A DNA stretch of 55,858 nt. It comes from Candidatus Nitrosopumilus limneticus. GTDB taxonomy: Archaea; Thermoproteota; Nitrososphaeria; Nitrososphaerales; Nitrosopumilaceae. Positions 1-55,858 of the stretch are shown one piece after another. The notes below the pieces were generated by a model. It saw only the letters and a program-made list of their open reading frames with translations, had not been told where the DNA came from and did not search any database. Location of the stretch: assembly GCA_022117465.1 (NCBI GenBank), contig JAHCGZ010000007.1:1-55858 (forward strand), written 5' to 3'. A program made the position numbers and the translations under genes. Numbering within the stretch: position 1 is the stretch's first letter; each line of letters opens with the position of its first letter.

Positions 1-765
1 GGTACTTGCACCAAATGTTTGTGCTGTTCCAAATGTTTGTCCTGCACCAAATTTAGCACTTGATCCAAATGTGTTTGAACCTACAAATATTTGAGCACCT
101 GAAAAGTTTGCACCAGTACCAAATGTTTGAGCAGTGTTAAATGTACTACCACTTGAAAACTTCATACTAGATGTATCAAAGTTTTGAGTTCCAGTAAATG
201 CTTGTCCAGATGCAAATATGGTACCACTTCCAAATTGTGTGTTTGATCCAAATGTTTGAGTTCCTGAAAAAGTTTGTCCAGATGTAAATGTAGCACCACT
301 ACCAAATGTTTGTCCTTGTTGGAAATTTTGTACGCCATTACCAAAGTTAATTCCACCAGATGCAAATATAGTTCCAGCCATAAGTGGGGCAGTGAAAGCT
401 GAATCACCCTCATTATTGAAAGCTAAAACTTTCCAACTAAATGGCTGACCTGCAGTCAAGGCACTGTTTCGATATGTTACAGTTGCAGCATTAACATTTG
501 TTTGATTTACTAATACTTCAGCATAATCTCCAAATTGATTAAAGGTATTAGGTAATGGTGATGCACGATAAATCTTGTAACCTGTTGGTGCTCCAGAAGT
601 AGGTTGAGTCCATTTTAAAGTAATGCTAGTTTCACTGGGTATTCCATCAACTCTAAGATTAATAGGTGCTGAAGGAACGGCGGCAAAAACAGGTTCTACA
701 GATATTGCTATAACAGATAATACAACTAATACGGAAATTATAATAATTAGTTTATTTTCGACCAT
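1..765 (-). CDS. Secreted FN3 domain protein with Phe-hexad repeats (3' end beyond window)
   Basis: An open frame runs from an ATG at 763-765 to the window edge with no stop, so at least 255 residues are seen and the C-terminus is missing. Residues 1-29 form a hydrophobic signal peptide (IIIISVLVVLSVIAISV then a FAA-type cleavage site). Residues about 30-130 look like a fibronectin type III domain (PSAPINLRV, ITLKWTQP, GYKIYRA, SWKVLAFNNEG). From about residue 135 onward a phenylalanine occurs nearly every six residues for about 20 turns, with small or polar residues and glycine between (GSGATF, TSGQTF, SGTQTF). This spacing suggests a beta-solenoid stalk on a cell-surface protein. Extracellular role, such as adhesion or S-layer association, is inference. 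Its composition is strongly biased to G, S, T, Q and F. Confidence 0.85.
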   Translation of the reverse strand, partial: MVENKLIIIISVLVVLSVIAISVEPVFAAVPSAPINLRVDGIPSETSITLKWTQPTSGAPTGYKIYRASPLPNTFNQFGDYAEVLVNQTNVNAATVTYRNSALTAGQPFSWKVLAFNNEGDSAFTAPLMAGTIFASGGINFGNGVQNFQQGQTFGSGATFTSGQTFSGTQTFGSNTQFGSGTIFASGQAFTGTQNFDTSSMKFSSGSTFNTAQTFGTGANFSGAQIFVGSNTFGSSAKFGAGQTFGTAQTFGAST

Positions 766-889
766 TCTCTGAAATAATTGTCGTGGTATTTATACAATTA
801 ATATACAAAATTTTATTTTGGGCTTAAGATCAGAATCATAATTTTATCTAGTATCACAAAATTGCATCTAAGAGATCTAGATTCTATTT

Positions 890-3079
890 TTACTCTTTAT
901 CAATATACTCAGAAATGCCTGGTGGGTCAGGAGCTAATCCTTTACGTTTTCTAATATCAGCAACTGCTGTTGCTAAAATTGATTTAGGAACTTCAGTCCA
1001 TGCTTTAAATGATGTATTCCATGTTGCACGTCCTGCAGTCTGACCCCTCATAGCTTCAGACAACGTAAAGGTTTCTGATGCAGGTAGTTCACCAATTATA
1101 ATACTTGATGCACCTTTTTGTTGCATATCAAGTACCTTACCACGTTTACCAGAAAGTATTGTTGCAACGTTTCCAACTAAATCAGTTGGTACACGAACTT
1201 CAATTGCAAGTGTTGGTTCTAAAACAGCAGTACCTGCAGTTAACAATGCACCCATACATGCCCTACGAGATGCAGGACCTAATTGAGACAAACCCCTATG
1301 TGCTGTATCTTCATGAGGTACAAAGTGAGTAAAGATAAATTTGCAGTCTCTCATTTGTTCTTTGCAAAGTGGACCTTCTTTCATAACGTCTTCAAATCCA
1401 GAATTTAGAGAGTCTGTAGATTCATTAACAAACTGAACACCTTTTGTGCCATTGATTAAAACATTACCACGAGAATCAAATTTCATTACTCTTTTAATTG
1501 TGTCAGTGTCCCAACCAGCACCTTTGAGTAAATCAGATACAATATCTTTATTTTTCATATCACTGATTTCACCAGTTCGTAACATGTGAGCAATTGCAGG
1601 TTCTAATGGCTCCACTCTCATGAAAATTTTATTGTGTCTATTTGGAGATTTTGCCATAACTGGTTCACATCCACCTTTTACAGTTTCTCTATAATTGATT
1701 AAAGGTTCAGAGGTAATAATTTCACATTTTTCTTGTATTCTATGATTTGCAACATCTAAATGTAAAACACCCATACCAGCAACAATAGTTTCACCACTTT
1801 CCTCATCAATTTTTACAATTAAATTTGGATCCTCAATTGTTAACTGTCTTAAAATTTCTACAAGTTTAGGCAAGTCTTTAGGATGTTTTGGTTCAATTGC
1901 AACTTGAACAACAGGTTCTGAAACATATTTGACACCTTCAAACATTTGAATGTCTTTAATAGATGACAAAGTATTTCCTGCACGACACTCTGTTAATCCC
2001 AGTAATGCAGGAATATTTCCTGCTCCTAGTTCACCAACTTGTTCTCTTTGATTGCCCATAAAGAAATTTACAGATTGAACTCGTCCCTCTCTTTTTTCAT
2101 CTATAATGTTAATTGTTTGTCCATCTTTTATTGTTCCAGAAAATAATCTACCAATTGCAATGGGACCAGCTGCAGGATCTATGACCATATTTACAACCAT
2201 CATAATTGTTGGTCCGTCATCTTCACCAGCAAGTAATGCTTTACCAACATCAGAATTTAAATCGCCTTTCCAAATTTGTGGAATTCTGTATTTGACTGCA
2301 TCTTGTGGTGGTGGATGATGTTTTACAACCATTCCAAGTACTGCATCAGCTAATGGTGCTTTTTCTACAAGTTCTGGAAGTTTTTCAGAAGTGTATGCAT
2401 CAATTACGTCTTTAAATGTAATTCCTCTTTCTTTCATTAAATCAGTGTTAATTGCCCATCTATCTTTAGCTGAACCAAATGTAACACTTGCATTCTGAAT
2501 TGATACCTTCCATTTTTCTTTGTACTCAGGTTCGGCATATGTGTCAATTAATTGATTAAATGCTGAAACCACATCTGCAAGTTGAGCTTGCATTTTTTCT
2601 GGAGTTAATCTCAATTCTTTGATTAATCTATCTACTTTATTGATAAACAAAACAGGTCTTACTCTTTCTTCAAGTGCCATTCTAGTTACAGTTTCAGTTT
2701 GAGTCATAATTCCTTCTACTGCATCACAAACTACTACAGCACCATCAATTGCTCTAAGACTTCGAATTACCCTTCCACTAAAATCGACGTGACCAGGAGT
2801 ATCAATCATATTAATTACATATTCTTGGTCTTTTTGAGTAAATAGTAAAGTAACATTTGCTTGATAAATTGTAATTCCTCTTGCTTGCTCTTCTTTGTCA
2901 AAGTCCATTGCAAGTGCTTTACCAGCAGCAGAAGGAGCAATAATTCCAGAATAAGCCAAAAGACTATCACTCATGGTTGTCTTTCCATGGTCAACATGTG
3001 CAATTACACCAAAGTTACGAATATTTTTTTTATTTTTAATAATTTTCATTACTTCTTGAGTTGACTTGAATTTTGCCAT
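890..3079 (-). CDS. fusA: Translation elongation factor 2 (aEF-2)
   Basis: This is the ribosomal translocase GTPase, about 729 residues, the normal size for archaeal EF-2. The G1 motif AHVDHGKT lies near residues 27-34, G3 as DTPGH, and G4 as NKVD. Domain IV keeps the histidine of AHRGLSQ (about residue 594), which aligns with yeast H699, the diphthamide site. The C-terminus reads RKRKGLAPDPPGISEYIDKE. An in-frame TTG nine bases upstream could extend it, but the ATG giving MAKFKSTQ fits the TATA box spacing and known homologues better. It stands alone with its own promoter. Nothing is odd about it. Confidence 0.97.
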   Translation of the reverse strand: MAKFKSTQEVMKIIKNKKNIRNFGVIAHVDHGKTTMSDSLLAYSGIIAPSAAGKALAMDFDKEEQARGITIYQANVTLLFTQKDQEYVINMIDTPGHVDFSGRVIRSLRAIDGAVVVCDAVEGIMTQTETVTRMALEERVRPVLFINKVDRLIKELRLTPEKMQAQLADVVSAFNQLIDTYAEPEYKEKWKVSIQNASVTFGSAKDRWAINTDLMKERGITFKDVIDAYTSEKLPELVEKAPLADAVLGMVVKHHPPPQDAVKYRIPQIWKGDLNSDVGKALLAGEDDGPTIMMVVNMVIDPAAGPIAIGRLFSGTIKDGQTINIIDEKREGRVQSVNFFMGNQREQVGELGAGNIPALLGLTECRAGNTLSSIKDIQMFEGVKYVSEPVVQVAIEPKHPKDLPKLVEILRQLTIEDPNLIVKIDEESGETIVAGMGVLHLDVANHRIQEKCEIITSEPLINYRETVKGGCEPVMAKSPNRHNKIFMRVEPLEPAIAHMLRTGEISDMKNKDIVSDLLKGAGWDTDTIKRVMKFDSRGNVLINGTKGVQFVNESTDSLNSGFEDVMKEGPLCKEQMRDCKFIFTHFVPHEDTAHRGLSQLGPASRRACMGALLTAGTAVLEPTLAIEVRVPTDLVGNVATILSGKRGKVLDMQQKGASSIIIGELPASETFTLSEAMRGQTAGRATWNTSFKAWTEVPKSILATAVADIRKRKGLAPDPPGISEYIDKE

Positions 3080-3099
3080 AATGCGCAATCCAGTCGGGC

Positions 3100-3110
3100 A
3101 TTATATAATG
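3100..3110 (-). promoter_or_regulatory. TATA box of the EF-2 gene
   Basis: On the minus strand the sequence ATTATATAA is centred about 26 bases before the EF-2 ATG. Archaeal TATA boxes sit about 25 bases before the transcription start, so the mRNA would begin at or next to the start codon (leaderless), as is usual in this group. This is inferred from spacing and composition only. Confidence 0.55.
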
Positions 3111-3268
3111 TATGGGATATTTACTCATGAAATTAATTTGTAAATTTTTTAATCTTTAAGAAAATTATTAAAAATAATCATTTGATTAAAAGATCATCCA
3201 TTACAAAAAATATCTACTAAAATTTTAAAATGATTTTGATTTTTATTACGACTATTAAAAAAACTAAT

Positions 3269-4096
3269 ATGAAAATTTCTGTAGGACATACTCCTGATTC
3301 AGACGACGCATTCATGTTTTATGGAATGTTTACAAATAAAGTCCCATCTCCAGATTTTACAGTAAATCATGTTATAGAAGACATTGAAAAATTGAACCTC
3401 AAAGCAACTAATCCAGAATTAGATGTTACAGCAGTTTCAGTTCATGCATGTGCATACATTCCAGGATATACAATTTTGAGAAGTGGTGGAAGTTTTGGAA
3501 TTAATTATGGTCCAATAGTTACAGCAAAAAAACAAATGACAATTAATGAATTAAAAAAATGTAAAATAGCAATTCCTGGAAAAATGACATCAGCATTTTT
3601 GCTACTACAGTTAATGATAGGAAAATTTGAATATGTTGAAATGATTTTTAGCGACATTCCAAAAGCTGTAGAATCAGGAGAAGTAGATGCAGGATTAGTA
3701 ATTCATGAAACTCAATTATCATATAAGCAAGAAGGAAATGTCAAAATTTTAGATGTTGGAGAATGGTGGGATAAAACAACAGGAGGATTACCAGTACCTT
3801 TAGGAATTAACGTAATGAAAACAGATTTGGGCATGGAAACGATTGTTAAATTTGATAAATATTTGCAGGCATCTATTGAATTTGGAATAAAGAATTTTGA
3901 TGATGCAATAGAATATTCAATGCAATACTCTAGAGGCAAAGAACGAACACTAATTGAGAAATTTGTAAAGATGTATGTAAACCAAATTACAGTTAACATG
4001 GGAGATTCAGGAGAAAAGTCAATTAGAAAATTATTTGAAATGGCAAAAGAAAAAGGATTAGTTCCAGATTTTGAAATCTCTATTGCCACCAAGTAA
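3269..4096 (+). CDS. mqnD: MqnD-like menaquinone biosynthesis protein (1,4-dihydroxy-6-naphthoate synthase family)
   Basis: The product (275 residues from the ATG giving MKISVGHTPDSDDAFM) has the MqnA/MqnD periplasmic-binding-protein-like fold signature: an N-terminal GHTPDSDDAF segment in place of the bacterial CPNDTF motif, a YGPIVTAKK strand, IAIPGKMTSAFLLLQL, and GEVDAGLVIHETQ. MqnD converts cyclic dehypoxanthinyl futalosine to 1,4-dihydroxy-6-naphthoate in the futalosine route to menaquinone. No signal peptide is seen from the chosen start; a TTG start 39 bases upstream would add a hydrophobic stretch but is less likely. The presence of an MqnE-like radical SAM gene in the same region (7504-8601) supports the pathway call. 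Automatic annotation might label it an ABC substrate-binding protein. Confidence 0.8.
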   Translation: MKISVGHTPDSDDAFMFYGMFTNKVPSPDFTVNHVIEDIEKLNLKATNPELDVTAVSVHACAYIPGYTILRSGGSFGINYGPIVTAKKQMTINELKKCKIAIPGKMTSAFLLLQLMIGKFEYVEMIFSDIPKAVESGEVDAGLVIHETQLSYKQEGNVKILDVGEWWDKTTGGLPVPLGINVMKTDLGMETIVKFDKYLQASIEFGIKNFDDAIEYSMQYSRGKERTLIEKFVKMYVNQITVNMGDSGEKSIRKLFEMAKEKGLVPDFEISIATK

Positions 4097-4123
4097 TTAT
4101 AGTACAAAAAAAATATTTAGATT

Positions 4124-4432
4124 ATGGCAGATGATTTGGATGGAGATGGAATTGGAGGAGCAGTTTTAGAAATTTTAACTGGAAATGCATTCAGATTACT
4201 TGTTAGTCATACAAGAAAAGATAACAAAGGAGATTATGGAAAAACAGAAAAAATAATCATGGGGTTGATTAAAGATTCAGAAGAGGGACAACCTCCAGAA
4301 CAAACCAAAGAGGATCTAGAGAGAGCATTAAAAGGTAAATTTGTCACTTGTAAAGTTCAACACAGAGATGCAAAGACAGATGCGTTAATTTGTAATGTAT
4401 TTGTTCAAAGACCACCAGAAGGTTCAATTTAA
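4124..4432 (+). CDS. Conserved small acidic protein of unknown function
   Basis: A 102-residue soluble protein begins at an ATG 28 bases after mqnD and may be co-transcribed with it. The N-terminus is acidic and glycine-rich (MADDLDGDGIGGAVLE); the middle is mixed charge (LVSHTRKDNKGDYGKTEK), and the C-terminal half contains CKVQHRDAKTDALICNVFV. There are no membrane segments, and the two cysteines are not in a metal-binding CxxC. I do not recognise the family. Clean codon structure, good start spacing and lack of overlap support a real gene. Confidence 0.75.
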   Translation: MADDLDGDGIGGAVLEILTGNAFRLLVSHTRKDNKGDYGKTEKIIMGLIKDSEEGQPPEQTKEDLERALKGKFVTCKVQHRDAKTDALICNVFVQRPPEGSI

Positions 4433-4451
4433 TTCTAAAATAAATTAAAAG

Positions 4452-4769
4452 TTAATTTTTTTCTCCCCAGAATTTTAAAAAAATATGATGTGCTTGACCA
4501 ATAGAAGTTAAATTGTAACCAACTACCCCTTCTTTTTTAATTATAGAAGTGATAATTCCTTTTTTAATCATGATCTTAAAGGTGGGATTATTATTAAACG
4601 GGTATCCTGAGTTTTTATTTAAAATTTTGAAATAGTCCTTACCTTTGGTAGTTAATTTGAAAATAATGTTTTGAGGATTATTTGAATCTGTAATTGGTTC
4701 TAAAATCCAATCATTAACTAAATCAGATAAAATCAAATTGTCATCAGATTTTTCTTTAGGTAACTCCAC
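4452..4769 (-). CDS. Hypothetical protein, possible winged-helix-like
   Basis: A 105-residue protein opens with GTG. It has alternating helix- and strand-like segments: ILSDLVNDWIL, FKLTTKGKDYFKIL, then FKIMIKKGIITSIIKKEGVVGYNLTSIG. Phrases like LTTKGKDYF and GYNLTSIGQAH resemble the wing and recognition region of small winged-helix proteins, but this is a weak impression. It converges on the preceding plus-strand gene with 19 bases between stops. The 147 bases between this gene and sdhD hold only short unassigned open frames. Confidence 0.6.
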   Translation of the reverse strand: MELPKEKSDDNLILSDLVNDWILEPITDSNNPQNIIFKLTTKGKDYFKILNKNSGYPFNNNPTFKIMIKKGIITSIIKKEGVVGYNLTSIGQAHHIFLKFWGEKN

Positions 4770-4916
4770 AAATATTAAAAAACTATACAGTATATGAAAT
4801 TTGAATAGAATTATTTACTTTAGAAATTATTAAAACAACGGCTAATGATGATACCAACGGGTTCTATCTGATTCCTCAATCTGATGATACTTTGCCGAAT
4901 TTTGAAGCCAAATAAC

Positions 4917-44865: not shown

Positions 44866-45423
44866 ATGGAAACAGAGCCAAAGGATGTAATTGTATTAGG
44901 ATCAATCAGAAAAGGAAATAAAAAATTTTCAAAGATCCAAAATGATACCAAAATCGAGACTGAAGAATTAAATTTAATTTTAGAAGAATTAGAAAATAAT
45001 GAATTCATTAAAGTTGAAGAGAAAAAAGGTTTGTTTGGAAAAAAAATTGAATTGGACATTACAGAAGTAGGTTCAAATGAACTAGATAGAAAAATCACAG
45101 AAATACAATCAAAATGGAAAGAAATGAAATCACTTTACGAAAGTGGAAATAAACAGCAACTTCAACAAAAAATGGAAGAAAATAAATCATTGTTACCAAC
45201 TATGATGTTTTTTGGCGTAATGGATATGATCATGTTTTCAATGATGTTCAGTATGATGGGAATGGCAATGTCAAGTTTCGTATCAGACCAAGACATGGCC
45301 AATGCAGAGACGGATGGTGGTGCATCTGATGGTGGTGCATCTGATGGTGGTGCATCTGATGGTGGTGCATCTGATGGTGGTGCATCTGATGGTGGAGGAT
45401 TTGATTTTGATGTTGGGTTCTAG
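44866..45423 (+). CDS. Winged-helix protein with Met-rich helix and Gly-Asp repeat tail
   Basis: A 185-residue protein with three parts. Residues 1-75 look like a winged helix (DVIVLGSIRKGNKKFSKIQN, TEELNLILEELENNEFIKV). A charged helix follows, then a Met-rich hydrophobic segment at about 115-140 (MMFFGVMDMIMFSMMFSMMG) that may span or lie on the membrane. The tail (about 150-178) is five perfect DGGAS units. A membrane-tethered transcription regulator is one reading; the Met cluster could also bind copper. Uncertain family. Confidence 0.78.
   Translation: METEPKDVIVLGSIRKGNKKFSKIQNDTKIETEELNLILEELENNEFIKVEEKKGLFGKKIELDITEVGSNELDRKITEIQSKWKEMKSLYESGNKQQLQQKMEENKSLLPTMMFFGVMDMIMFSMMFSMMGMAMSSFVSDQDMANAETDGGASDGGASDGGASDGGASDGGASDGGGFDFDVGF
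45313..45387 (+). repeat. 15-bp tandem repeat (five copies)
   Basis: Five perfect copies of gatggtggtgcatct encode the DGGAS tail of the preceding gene. Perfect identity at DNA level means recent expansion; copy number likely varies. Confidence 0.92.
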
Positions 45424-46462: not shown

Positions 46463-46981
46463 TTATTTTTTGGATTTAGGTTTAGTTTTAGGTTTAGTTT
46501 TAGGTTTAGTTTTAGGTTTAGTTTTAGGTTTAGTTTTAGGTTTAGTTTTAGGTTTAGTTTTAGGTTTAGTTTTAGGTTTAGTTTTAGGTTTAGTTTTAGG
46601 TTTAGTTTTAGACTTGGATTTTGTTTTAGATTTAGATTTTGTTTTAGAAGATTTCATCAAAGAAGATTGATCTTGTAAGATATTTTTTAGTTCATTTTTA
46701 ATTTCAGATAGGGAAGTCAATATTGACTCCATAGATTTTGCATAAATAGAATAAACAGAAATAAGTTCTGTCTTTTTTTGATCAGAATGTACAAGAAATT
46801 CATTTTTGCGTAGTAGGTTTGCAGAATCAATTAATTCAGGAAGTTGCTCTGGAGAATCTCCCGATTTCTGTAATTCGCTTTCAATTTGATCAATCTTTTG
46901 CTTTAAATCATGCAAATTAGCACTAATTTGAATTTCAGTCAACAAAAAAGTACAGCTTAGAAATGAATTAAAGATTTCCAT
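46463..46981 (-). CDS. Helical protein with (KTKP)n basic tail
   Basis: The ATG at 46981 gives 172 residues (a TTG 14 codons upstream would add a hydrophobic N-terminus). The body is helical coiled-coil (LHDLKQKIDQIESELQKSG, MESILTSLSEIKNELKNIL). The tail begins with KTKSKSK and becomes 11 copies of KTKP, ending KPKSKK. This resembles histone-H1-like or bacterial AlgP/HC2 basic tails, so DNA or RNA binding is plausible. Family not recognised. Confidence 0.78.
   Translation of the reverse strand: MEIFNSFLSCTFLLTEIQISANLHDLKQKIDQIESELQKSGDSPEQLPELIDSANLLRKNEFLVHSDQKKTELISVYSIYAKSMESILTSLSEIKNELKNILQDQSSLMKSSKTKSKSKTKSKSKTKPKTKPKTKPKTKPKTKPKTKPKTKPKTKPKTKPKTKPKTKPKSKK
46476..46607 (-). repeat. 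12-bp tandem repeat (11 copies)
   Basis: Eleven copies of ttaggtttagtt (plus strand) encode KTKP units in the tail of the gene on the minus strand. The copies are identical, so length change by slippage is expected. An open frame on the plus strand (GLVL repeats) is only the shadow of this repeat. Confidence 0.93.
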
Positions 46982-47054
46982 GATTTTTAGAAACACCAAA
47001 AATATAGTAGACAATAATAACAAAGTATAGAAATAAACACGAAAATAATAAATT

Positions 47055-53852: not shown

Positions 53853-54236
53853 TTAATTAACATCGGTAAAAATTTCTACGACCTTTTTGGCCAAATTTTC
53901 AATATTTGCAGAAGGTTCAGCAGAAATTAACAATAGTATTTGAGTTATAGGAAAAGGAAAACTCACTAAAACTGCCTTGTCACGTCGTGCTGCAAGATAA
54001 TTGATAGGACCTAAACTTTCATCATATTCTTTTCTAATGGATGCTTTAGAAACAAATTCCAAAAATGAGTGCAATCTCGTTTCATCCCCTTCGTGTGGAA
54101 CTAAACCTTCTTTGAATCCACCTGCAATCAACTTACCATCTTTATCGACAATTCCAGCAAATCGAATTTCAGATTCGGATAATAATCGAGCGCATTTTTT
54201 ACTATGTAATGACAATTGAGCTGAATCAGCCATCAT
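53853..54236 (-). CDS. DUF6659-like (roadblock-like) protein, copy 2
   Basis: A 127-residue protein, paralogue of the one at 48989-49381. Typical segments are IRFAGIVDKDGKLIAGGFKE, GPINYLAARRDKAVLVSFPF and ILLLISAEP, a roadblock-like alpha/beta arrangement. Two adjacent ATGs (54236, 54233). The pair flanks the PHA region, 4.5 kb apart. Role unknown. Confidence 0.8.
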   Translation of the reverse strand: MMADSAQLSLHSKKCARLLSESEIRFAGIVDKDGKLIAGGFKEGLVPHEGDETRLHSFLEFVSKASIRKEYDESLGPINYLAARRDKAVLVSFPFPITQILLLISAEPSANIENLAKKVVEIFTDVN

Positions 54237-54296
54237 ACAAAATTAGTCAACATGAAGATAAAAACCTATTTAGAACTAAAATAGATTTTATTAAGA

Positions 54297-55148
54297 TTAA
54301 TTTTTTAAAACACATTTCAAAAGAACGTAATCAATAATTTTTTCTTGTGACGCTTTTTTCATTTTTAGTAATGACTTGTAAAGAATTTTTTCCATGTATC
54401 CAGGATAATATTCAAGAATATTATTACTCAATATTTTTCTATTTTCAACATAATAATCTGCTAAAGGTTCATAAACATTAGAACCAATCAATGTTTCATC
54501 AGTTATTTTAAATCCATTAGAAGTAAGAAGGCTTTTCAAATAAGTCAAGTCATAATGCTCAGATGACCAAGTAAATTTTAGCAAGCCTAATTTTGCAAAA
54601 GAAGGATTACCTACAGTAACAGGTATTGCCATGACAAGGAATCCAGATGAAATTAAAACTCGTTTGGACTCCTTAATGAAATCATCCAAAGGTTTGAAAT
54701 GTTGTGCAGATTCTAAAGCTAATACACGATCCACAGAGTTATCTAAAAAAGGCAACTTAGTGGATGTTGAATTTAAAAATTGAATGTTTTCATGCTGTTT
54801 TAAAAAAGATAATTGCTTAAAATTGATATTTACATCATAAAGTTTAAGATCAGGATAAGACTCATGCCATAATTTGGATGGAGCAGATAAACCACTTCCA
54901 ACATCAATAGCATTTTTTGCAGTAGATAATTCAGATATCTTTCCAAAGACACTACACAAATTTTCTTGTGCAGAAATTGGGTCTAAATGTTTTGAAGACC
55001 AATAACCAAAATTAAGCATATCCCCCCCAGTAGCAATTTGCATAACAGGGGATAACGTATTGTAGAGATTTATCACATCCTTTTCATTTTTACGAAATGT
55101 CCAAAGAAATACATCAACAGGGTTTATCGATATCAAAAATAATTTCAT
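54297..55148 (-). CDS. SAM-dependent class I methyltransferase
   Basis: A 283-residue protein. Motif I is NAIDVGSGLSAPSKLW, followed by LKLYDVNINFKQLSFLKQ (SAM-binding acid) and a motif near VDRVLALESAQHFKP; FVLISSGF-like segments follow. N-terminal MLNFGYWS and the sterol/ubiquinone-like GYW context suggest a small-molecule O-, C- or N-methyltransferase. Substrate unknown. Confidence 0.88.
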   Translation of the reverse strand: MKLFLISINPVDVFLWTFRKNEKDVINLYNTLSPVMQIATGGDMLNFGYWSSKHLDPISAQENLCSVFGKISELSTAKNAIDVGSGLSAPSKLWHESYPDLKLYDVNINFKQLSFLKQHENIQFLNSTSTKLPFLDNSVDRVLALESAQHFKPLDDFIKESKRVLISSGFLVMAIPVTVGNPSFAKLGLLKFTWSSEHYDLTYLKSLLTSNGFKITDETLIGSNVYEPLADYYVENRKILSNNILEYYPGYMEKILYKSLLKMKKASQEKIIDYVLLKCVLKN

Positions 55149-55250
55149 TTTTATTTAAAATTGGTACTATTAATTCCTAAGTTAATTTTTAGAAATCACA
55201 ATGATTTTCAATAATTAACGTATTTTACTAGGTAAAAATAATATAAAATA

Positions 55251-55721
55251 TTGGATAATCCAGAATCATCAGAAATAATATTAGCTAAATGGAAAGATAG
55301 ATTTTTTGCATGGATTATTGATTTTCTTATTATTTCAATTATATCCACATCTGTAATCTTTCTATCATTTCAATATTTAGAGTATAATTTTGATGAATTT
55401 ATTACAAATTCTAGAATGTATATTCCAACAAGTATAATGTTTTTTGTATATTGGATAATTATAGAATATAAGACAGGTCAAACAATTGGGAAAAAAATTT
55501 TTAATCTGAAAATTGTAAATTATGATGGAAAAAAACCAACATTTTTAGAAATTGTTGCTAGTAGTTTTGGAAAATCATTCATATTACCAGTAGATGTTAT
55601 CTTAGGAGTTATTCTAACAAATCAAAGACGTCAAAGAATATTCAATAAAGTAGGAAACACAATAATAATTAAAATTAAAAAAATTGATGAAAGTTTAGAT
55701 TTTAAATATATCAAAGATTAA
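55251..55721 (+). CDS. RDD family membrane protein
   Basis: A 156-residue protein starting at TTG (MDNPESSEII). The RDD signature is present as KDRFFAWIIDFLIIS (R and D in helix 1), with further helices near 60-78 and 105-130, and TIGKKIFNLKIV as the conserved G-x2-IFxLKIV segment. Function of the family is poorly known (ion or amphipath related). Its stop is three bases before a 42-bp tandem repeat array. Confidence 0.88.
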   Translation: MDNPESSEIILAKWKDRFFAWIIDFLIISIISTSVIFLSFQYLEYNFDEFITNSRMYIPTSIMFFVYWIIIEYKTGQTIGKKIFNLKIVNYDGKKPTFLEIVASSFGKSFILPVDVILGVILTNQRRQRIFNKVGNTIIIKIKKIDESLDFKYIKD

Positions 55722-55723
55722 TT

Positions 55724-55858
55724 ATGAAATCAACAATGCATAGCTTACGCTATGTGTGATTTAAAATGAAATCAACAATGCATAGCTTACGCTATGTGTG
55801 ATTTAAAATGAAATCAACAATGCATAGCTTACGCTATGTGTGATTTAAAATGAAATCA
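55724..55858. repeat. 42-bp perfect tandem repeat array with two hairpins per unit (runs off the window)
   Basis: Three full identical 42-base units start at 55724, 55766 and 55808, and a fourth begins at 55850 and is cut by the window edge. Each unit contains TGATTT-aaaatg-AAATCA (6-pair stem across unit joints) and ATGCATAGC-ttac-GCTATGTGT (nine pairs including G-U), joined by ACA, so nearly every base can pair. Each unit also holds a short frame of 11 codons (MKSTMHSLRYV). Whether this is natural, or an assembly artefact at a contig end, cannot be told from here. Confidence 0.88.

Follow-up and report, generated by a model that had tools for sequence, protein, structure and literature searches.

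In eukaryotes, the name Sal box is tied to clustered rDNA terminator sites, and in the usual bulge-helix-bulge (BHB) stem the middle helix has 4 bp. For archaeal termination, the accessible parts of two papers (PMC8716108, PMC7515710) describe U-tracts read by RNA polymerase together with the nuclease aCPSF1/FttA, a hairpin being not strictly needed; the same parts describe a thaumarchaeal aCPSF1 orthologue, from Cenarchaeum, that acts with U-tracts in Methanococcus. A Haloferax hairpin near 3' ends terminated 59% of transcripts in a reporter, according to an extract of PMC7237163, and the available portion of PMC12918454 reports circular 23S without circular 16S rRNA in Nitrososphaeria. How rRNA transcripts end in this ammonia-oxidising group was not described in the article portions returned by our literature searches, nor did the text portions returned by a full-text search describe the array or hairpin reported here.

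The window, the whole stretch of 55,858 nucleotides analysed, corresponds to contig C7 in an 8-contig genome of 1.19 Mb. A tandem array of period 42 fills the last 135 bp of the window (55724–55858), with 3.2 copies, 100% matches and no indels (TRF), bearing out the perfect 42-bp repeat of the preliminary description. The array and its neighbour comprise the following features:

55251..55721, plus strand: convergent gene for an RDD family membrane protein (PF06271, E 1.6e-18)
55724..55732, minus strand: initial 9 bases of a fourth unit; the array ends there against the convergent gene (sequence, TRF)
55733..55774, minus strand: third array unit, identical (TRF, covariance model)
55741..55752, minus strand: core of the third unit's hairpin, TAGC-GTAA-GCTA, recurring at 55783–55794 and 55825–55836 (sequence; family-wide covariation)
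55757..55774, minus strand: T-rich half TGATTTCATTTTAAATCA of the unit, a weak hairpin plus U-tract; also at 55799–55816 and 55841–55858 (sequence; alignment)
55775..55816, minus strand: second array unit, identical (TRF, covariance model)
55817..55858, minus strand: array unit nearest the 23S rRNA (TRF; covariance model match, 43 bits)

Read on the minus strand, a unit consists of the T-rich half TGATTTCATTTTAAATCA and then the hairpin ACATAGC-GTAA-GCTATGC, or, in terms of what is conserved, a small hairpin (TAGY-GNAN-RCTA) with a short U-tract (CATTTT) ahead of it. Units follow one another at exactly 42 bp, the unit length itself, which leaves no spacers; the locus was correctly said not to be a CRISPR. 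Two hairpins per unit had also been proposed, and that proposal stands in part. The array does fold better than 200 dinucleotide shuffles (RNA z −4.4 on the minus strand and −4.4 on the plus strand), and the stem CATAGC/GCTATG with its GTAA loop forms on the minus strand, the strand of the rRNA transcript. The long stem ATGCATAGC/GCTATGTGT, however, needs two G.T wobbles that exist on the plus strand only, being A.C mismatches on the minus strand; it has one base in common with the other stem, and in the minimum-energy RNA fold adjacent units pair together, so that no string of separate hairpins results. TRF finds two further repeats in the window, a 12-bp repeat of 14.4 copies (46475–46647, inside the minus-strand ORF 46463–47023) and a 15-bp repeat of 5.5 copies (45313–45395, inside the plus-strand ORF 44866–45423); both ORFs probably encode low-complexity repeat proteins.

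The genomic place of the array emerges from a second contig. The last 127 bases of the window are also the first 127 of contig C2, which then leaves the array toward the 3' end of a 23S rRNA gene on the minus strand; Rfam places LSU rRNA at 202–3198 and SSU rRNA at 3349–4819 of this C2 locus (L011), both on the minus strand. Because C2 carries the array on into the 23S rRNA 3' end, we read it as the 3' trailer of the 16S–23S operon on the minus strand; by sequence continuity, it belongs to the genome's only such operon as its 3' external transcribed spacer. Going 3' from the 23S rRNA, the order is the 3' strand of a BHB-like processing stem, a conserved ACACGACTTGTACGATGATT element and the tandem units, the last of which lies 2 bp from the stop codon of the RDD-family gene. 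The three identical units first described are thus present, but the window edge is not where the array ends, for C2 opens with those final 127 bases of the window before leaving the array. The overlap, at exactly 127 bases, resembles an assembly-graph break with k=127, and because a break of this kind by a 42-bp tandem requires an array of at least 169 bp, four or more units are likely here. For the same reason, copy numbers of 3.1–3.2 in other assemblies may be lower bounds, and short-read assemblies may show too few copies. That the array itself is an assembly artefact, as had been suggested, we reject: it occupies the same place in 14 separately assembled genomes, one of them a single contig with 5.1 copies, and the contig end hides the copy number only. 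The array also explains assembly breaks behind the 23S rRNA in several assemblies of this group.

Our comparison took in 68 trailers of the genus and 62 of the family's other genera, 130 altogether, a few of them cut by contig ends (genus loci L021, L051 and L052, which have no 23S end, were left out). Nitrosopumilus trailers read, in rRNA sense, ATACACGACTTGTACGATGATTT-CATTTTTAATCA-n(3-6)-TAGCGNANGCTATG, and the array unit corresponds to the T-rich tract and hairpin of these trailers. Of the 130, 106 contain the strict core TAGY-N4-RCTA (reversed control, 2 of 130; shuffles, 2.9%) and 118 a looser core, against 15.1 in shuffles. Most family genomes hold one to three unequal copies of the module, and at least two hairpins, mostly non-identical, are found in 58 of the 130 trailers. 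The 135 distinct hairpins close with CG in 83 cases, TA in 50, TG in 2 and CA in none, so this pair covaries; 127 of them have G as the first loop base and 121 have A as the third. The covariation claim is drawn from this 130-trailer count, in which the closing pair was not conditioned. Pair counts in an alignment of 36 seeds are biased toward structure at one pair, since these seeds had been selected for a closing pair that matches. Toward the outside of the stem, where positions are poorly conserved, A.C is more frequent than G.T in rRNA sense, which speaks against a long stem there and favours neither RNA nor DNA. The strict core is missing from 24 of the 130 trailers and the looser core from 12, six of these from genus g19; the hairpin is therefore dispensable.

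Rfam 15, run on 54000–55858, gave no array match up to E 5, its only hit being snoU18, far below cut-off and outside the array; searches of 50,697 phage and 72,556 plasmid records for an origin there gave no array match either. In six g19 loci (L173, L174, L175, L176, L178 and L182), a conserved stretch about 50–200 nt behind the 23S end replaces the hairpin. With its TATA-like start and GCTGTGGGGGAGTGCG...ACAGC element it resembles an RNA gene; Rfam gave no match to the stretch of L173.

The repeats could instead act as DNA, as near-palindromic sites bound by a protein that forms, for example, a polar replication-fork barrier or a chromatin boundary behind the rRNA operon, a reading that we consider highly improbable. 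The units are indeed near-palindromic in DNA (minus-strand DNA fold z −4.7 against 200 dinucleotide shuffles), and they form a cluster of identical sites immediately 3' of the large rRNA gene, as in rDNA terminator or fork-barrier arrays such as the TTF-I sites described in the accessible part of PMC3772059. Their orientation, on the other hand, is fixed relative to the transcript, and both loop and T-tract are strand-specific. We know of no protein that binds the array. Pair changes here cannot separate an RNA from a DNA reading; G.U asymmetry was tried as such a test and dropped, since closing-pair cases are too few (TG 2, CA 0). Among the options listed in the preliminary description, a segregation or replication site found no support in this analysis, and a transcribed structural RNA appears the best supported, given the position in the rRNA 3' trailer and the covariation of the hairpin.

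Relatives had been proposed as a place to look for the repeat, and they do carry it. The 135-bp array query matches 41 of 95 genus genomes, and 14 genomes have the 42-bp array; a 351-bp query comprising the 23S end and the trailer start matches 69 of 95, and wherever the 23S end was also found, the best array match of the genome lies directly 3' of it. The 14 arrays hold 2 to 6 full units, with five in the single-contig genome G003. Units differ at a mean of 0.07 of 42 positions within a genome (60 pairs) and at a mean of 1.9, and up to 6, between genomes (91 pairs); we infer that the units undergo concerted turnover. A 23S tree with 46 rows groups the 42-bp arrays into a single clade (11 rows, 100/100 support), the label of G013 having been assigned manually on the basis of its second contig. 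Elsewhere in the genus, G092 has a 46-bp array and its sister G035 has none, and G014 has a 44-bp array where its sister G015 has a longer duplication. In g14, another genus of the family, G151 has a 42-bp unit of different sequence in 4.7 copies, G178 a 48-bp unit in 3.3 and G188 a 43-bp unit in 3.1, while single or unequal copies occur in other members. Tandem arrays of identical copies (unit lengths 42 to 48 bp) thus arose independently at least three or four times, a count in which the g14 events lie outside the tree.

Four g14 loci (L156, L158, L165 and L166) contain more short tandem repeats, with periods of 21 to 42, some 290–470 nt behind the 23S match. Two contigs are anomalous. The 23S of L081 (G013:C23) groups with the array clade while its trailer is nearly that of G040, and the G013 array ends another contig (L021); L081 is probably a chimeric contig. 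L091, filed under a Desulfobacterota genome, has the Nitrosopumilus 23S trailer motif and is probably mis-binned.

Such turnover might need no function at all: hairpin-prone DNA behind a heavily transcribed operon could slip in replication and duplicate without benefit, as a neutral or selfish minisatellite. Units homogenised within genomes and different between them, copy numbers running from 2 to 6 full units, and recurrent amplification with varied unit lengths would all fit. We nevertheless judge this decidedly unlikely, for at least two units are kept in all 14 examined genomes of the 42-bp clade despite their small size (1.36 Mb for the complete G003), and those 58 of 130 family members with two or more hairpins keep copies that are mostly non-identical.

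Upstream of the array, 23S leader and trailer form a BHB-like stem of −43.3 kcal/mol with two three-base bulges and, in the fold, a middle helix of 6 bp. Between this processing stem and the array of L011, the ACACGACTTGTACGATGATT strand complements the same 23S leader with one-base interruptions only; its pairing scores −34.3, against a mean of −12.3 for shuffled leaders, none of 200 being equally good. Across the genus (45 loci examined, one without the motif), the second leader complement outscores every one of 100 shuffles at 41 of 44 loci. From these modelled pairings, it may compete with the 23S processing stem. The module could belong to processing or protecting the 3' end of the rRNA precursor as a nuclease entry site or a block to 3' exonucleases, with termination elsewhere and the array units as equivalent sites. 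The module does lie beyond the processing stem, its G-N-A-N loop is conserved and its stem covaries, and the nearly bulge-free leader complement suggests RNA-level folding steps in the spacer. Yet we think this reading unlikely, as the conserved T-rich tract also precedes the hairpin at two protein genes that have no need of rRNA processing.

These two genes came from a covariance model built from 36 trailers and run on 17 genomes, in all 17 of which it recovers the rRNA site. The model lists 46 matches with E no higher than 1: 34 fall at rRNA, including six from G000 in which three units are double-counted owing to the contig overlap, and the other 12 lie elsewhere. The best 8 non-rRNA matches (E up to 0.5) include five behind an IscA/ErpA gene and two behind a gene for an 89-aa protein, all seven in sense direction; the eighth is at G026:156487. 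At 30 genus loci of each gene the T-rich tract behind the coding sequence is nearly constant. By eye, the hairpin follows this tract, 34–43 nt behind the coding end, at 17 of 30 IscA/ErpA and 11 of 30 89-aa loci, and several others have a one-letter hairpin variant; the loop at the two genes is often not G-N-A-N. The 89-aa protein is membrane-like, occurs in 77 of 95 genus genomes (L221, L225, L229 and L269–L298) and has no NCBIfam or Pfam family and no PDB relative. A general terminator role for the hairpin was discarded: over 400 kb of G003, the looser core stands behind 4 of 131 ORF ends with room for it (shuffles 3.4, reversed control 1). Outside rRNA, the strict pattern is no commoner in the 17 genomes than its reversed control.

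Because T-rich tract and hairpin also stand together behind these two protein genes, we read the module as a 3'-end or termination module, amplified here into what would be a fail-safe rRNA terminator. We put the probability of this function, deduced from comparative sequence evidence, at about 0.6. The U-tract would serve as the archaeal stop signal for RNA polymerase and aCPSF1/FttA, and the hairpin would slow the polymerase or shield the new 3' end. Each unit might be a weak terminator, with repetition tightening termination, so that the repeated module would halt heavy rRNA transcription before the convergent gene 2 bp beyond; unit identity would be maintained through replacement by slippage or unequal exchange. 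The genome has an aCPSF1 gene (TIGR03675, 800.9 bits; cut-off 580.2). About four or more U are characteristic of archaeal U-tracts; each unit offers CATTTT, the U-run of the 42-bp unit being only four long, and many relatives have longer T-runs. A bacterial-type intrinsic terminator is not what the unit resembles: its core stem of 4–6 bp is followed by GCATTGTTG, and the U-tract precedes the hairpin. All ten 42-bp arrays with a readable next ORF face a convergent ORF, and all ten belong to one clade; the next ORF is codirectional at the 44-bp, 46-bp and duplication arrays of the genus. Any link between array and convergent gene would rest on that one clade.

Were termination the function, a hairpin would be added to a process thought to require a U-tract alone; a conserved, covarying module at a defined site, present naturally in one to six copies, opens rRNA termination in Thaumarchaeota to direct testing. 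A much bolder proposal, to which we give little chance, is that Nitrosopumilaceae have their own rDNA-like terminator system, a U-tract-plus-GNAN-hairpin specific to the family, with a dedicated factor and a copy number behind the rRNA operon repeatedly and adaptively raised, as in the clustered rDNA terminators of eukaryotes, together with a second, nearly bulge-free 'anti-leader' strand in that trailer, which would compete with the 23S processing stem and set when excision occurs.

Each known system resembles the array in part. Like archaeal aCPSF1/FttA-dependent terminators, it has a U-rich tract behind a gene, in a genome that encodes aCPSF1; unlike them, it places a conserved hairpin after the U-tract and repeats the whole module in tandem, whereas archaeal 3' ends, in the accessible parts of the published accounts, need no hairpin. 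The E. coli rrn operons also have more than one terminator-like structure behind the rRNA genes (available portion of PMC8144298), but these are two terminators and no identical head-to-tail repeats, and the bacterial signal, a strong hairpin and then U, is the reverse of the order in the array module. The archaeal 23S bulge-helix-bulge stem has a counterpart just upstream in the same trailer, yet the array lies outside that stem and is no part of the excised 23S. The clustered TTF-I sites of eukaryotic rDNA share the arrangement of a repeated short element directly behind the large rRNA (excerpted text of PMC3772059); those, however, are protein-binding DNA sites for RNA polymerase I, whereas the hairpin of the array covaries.
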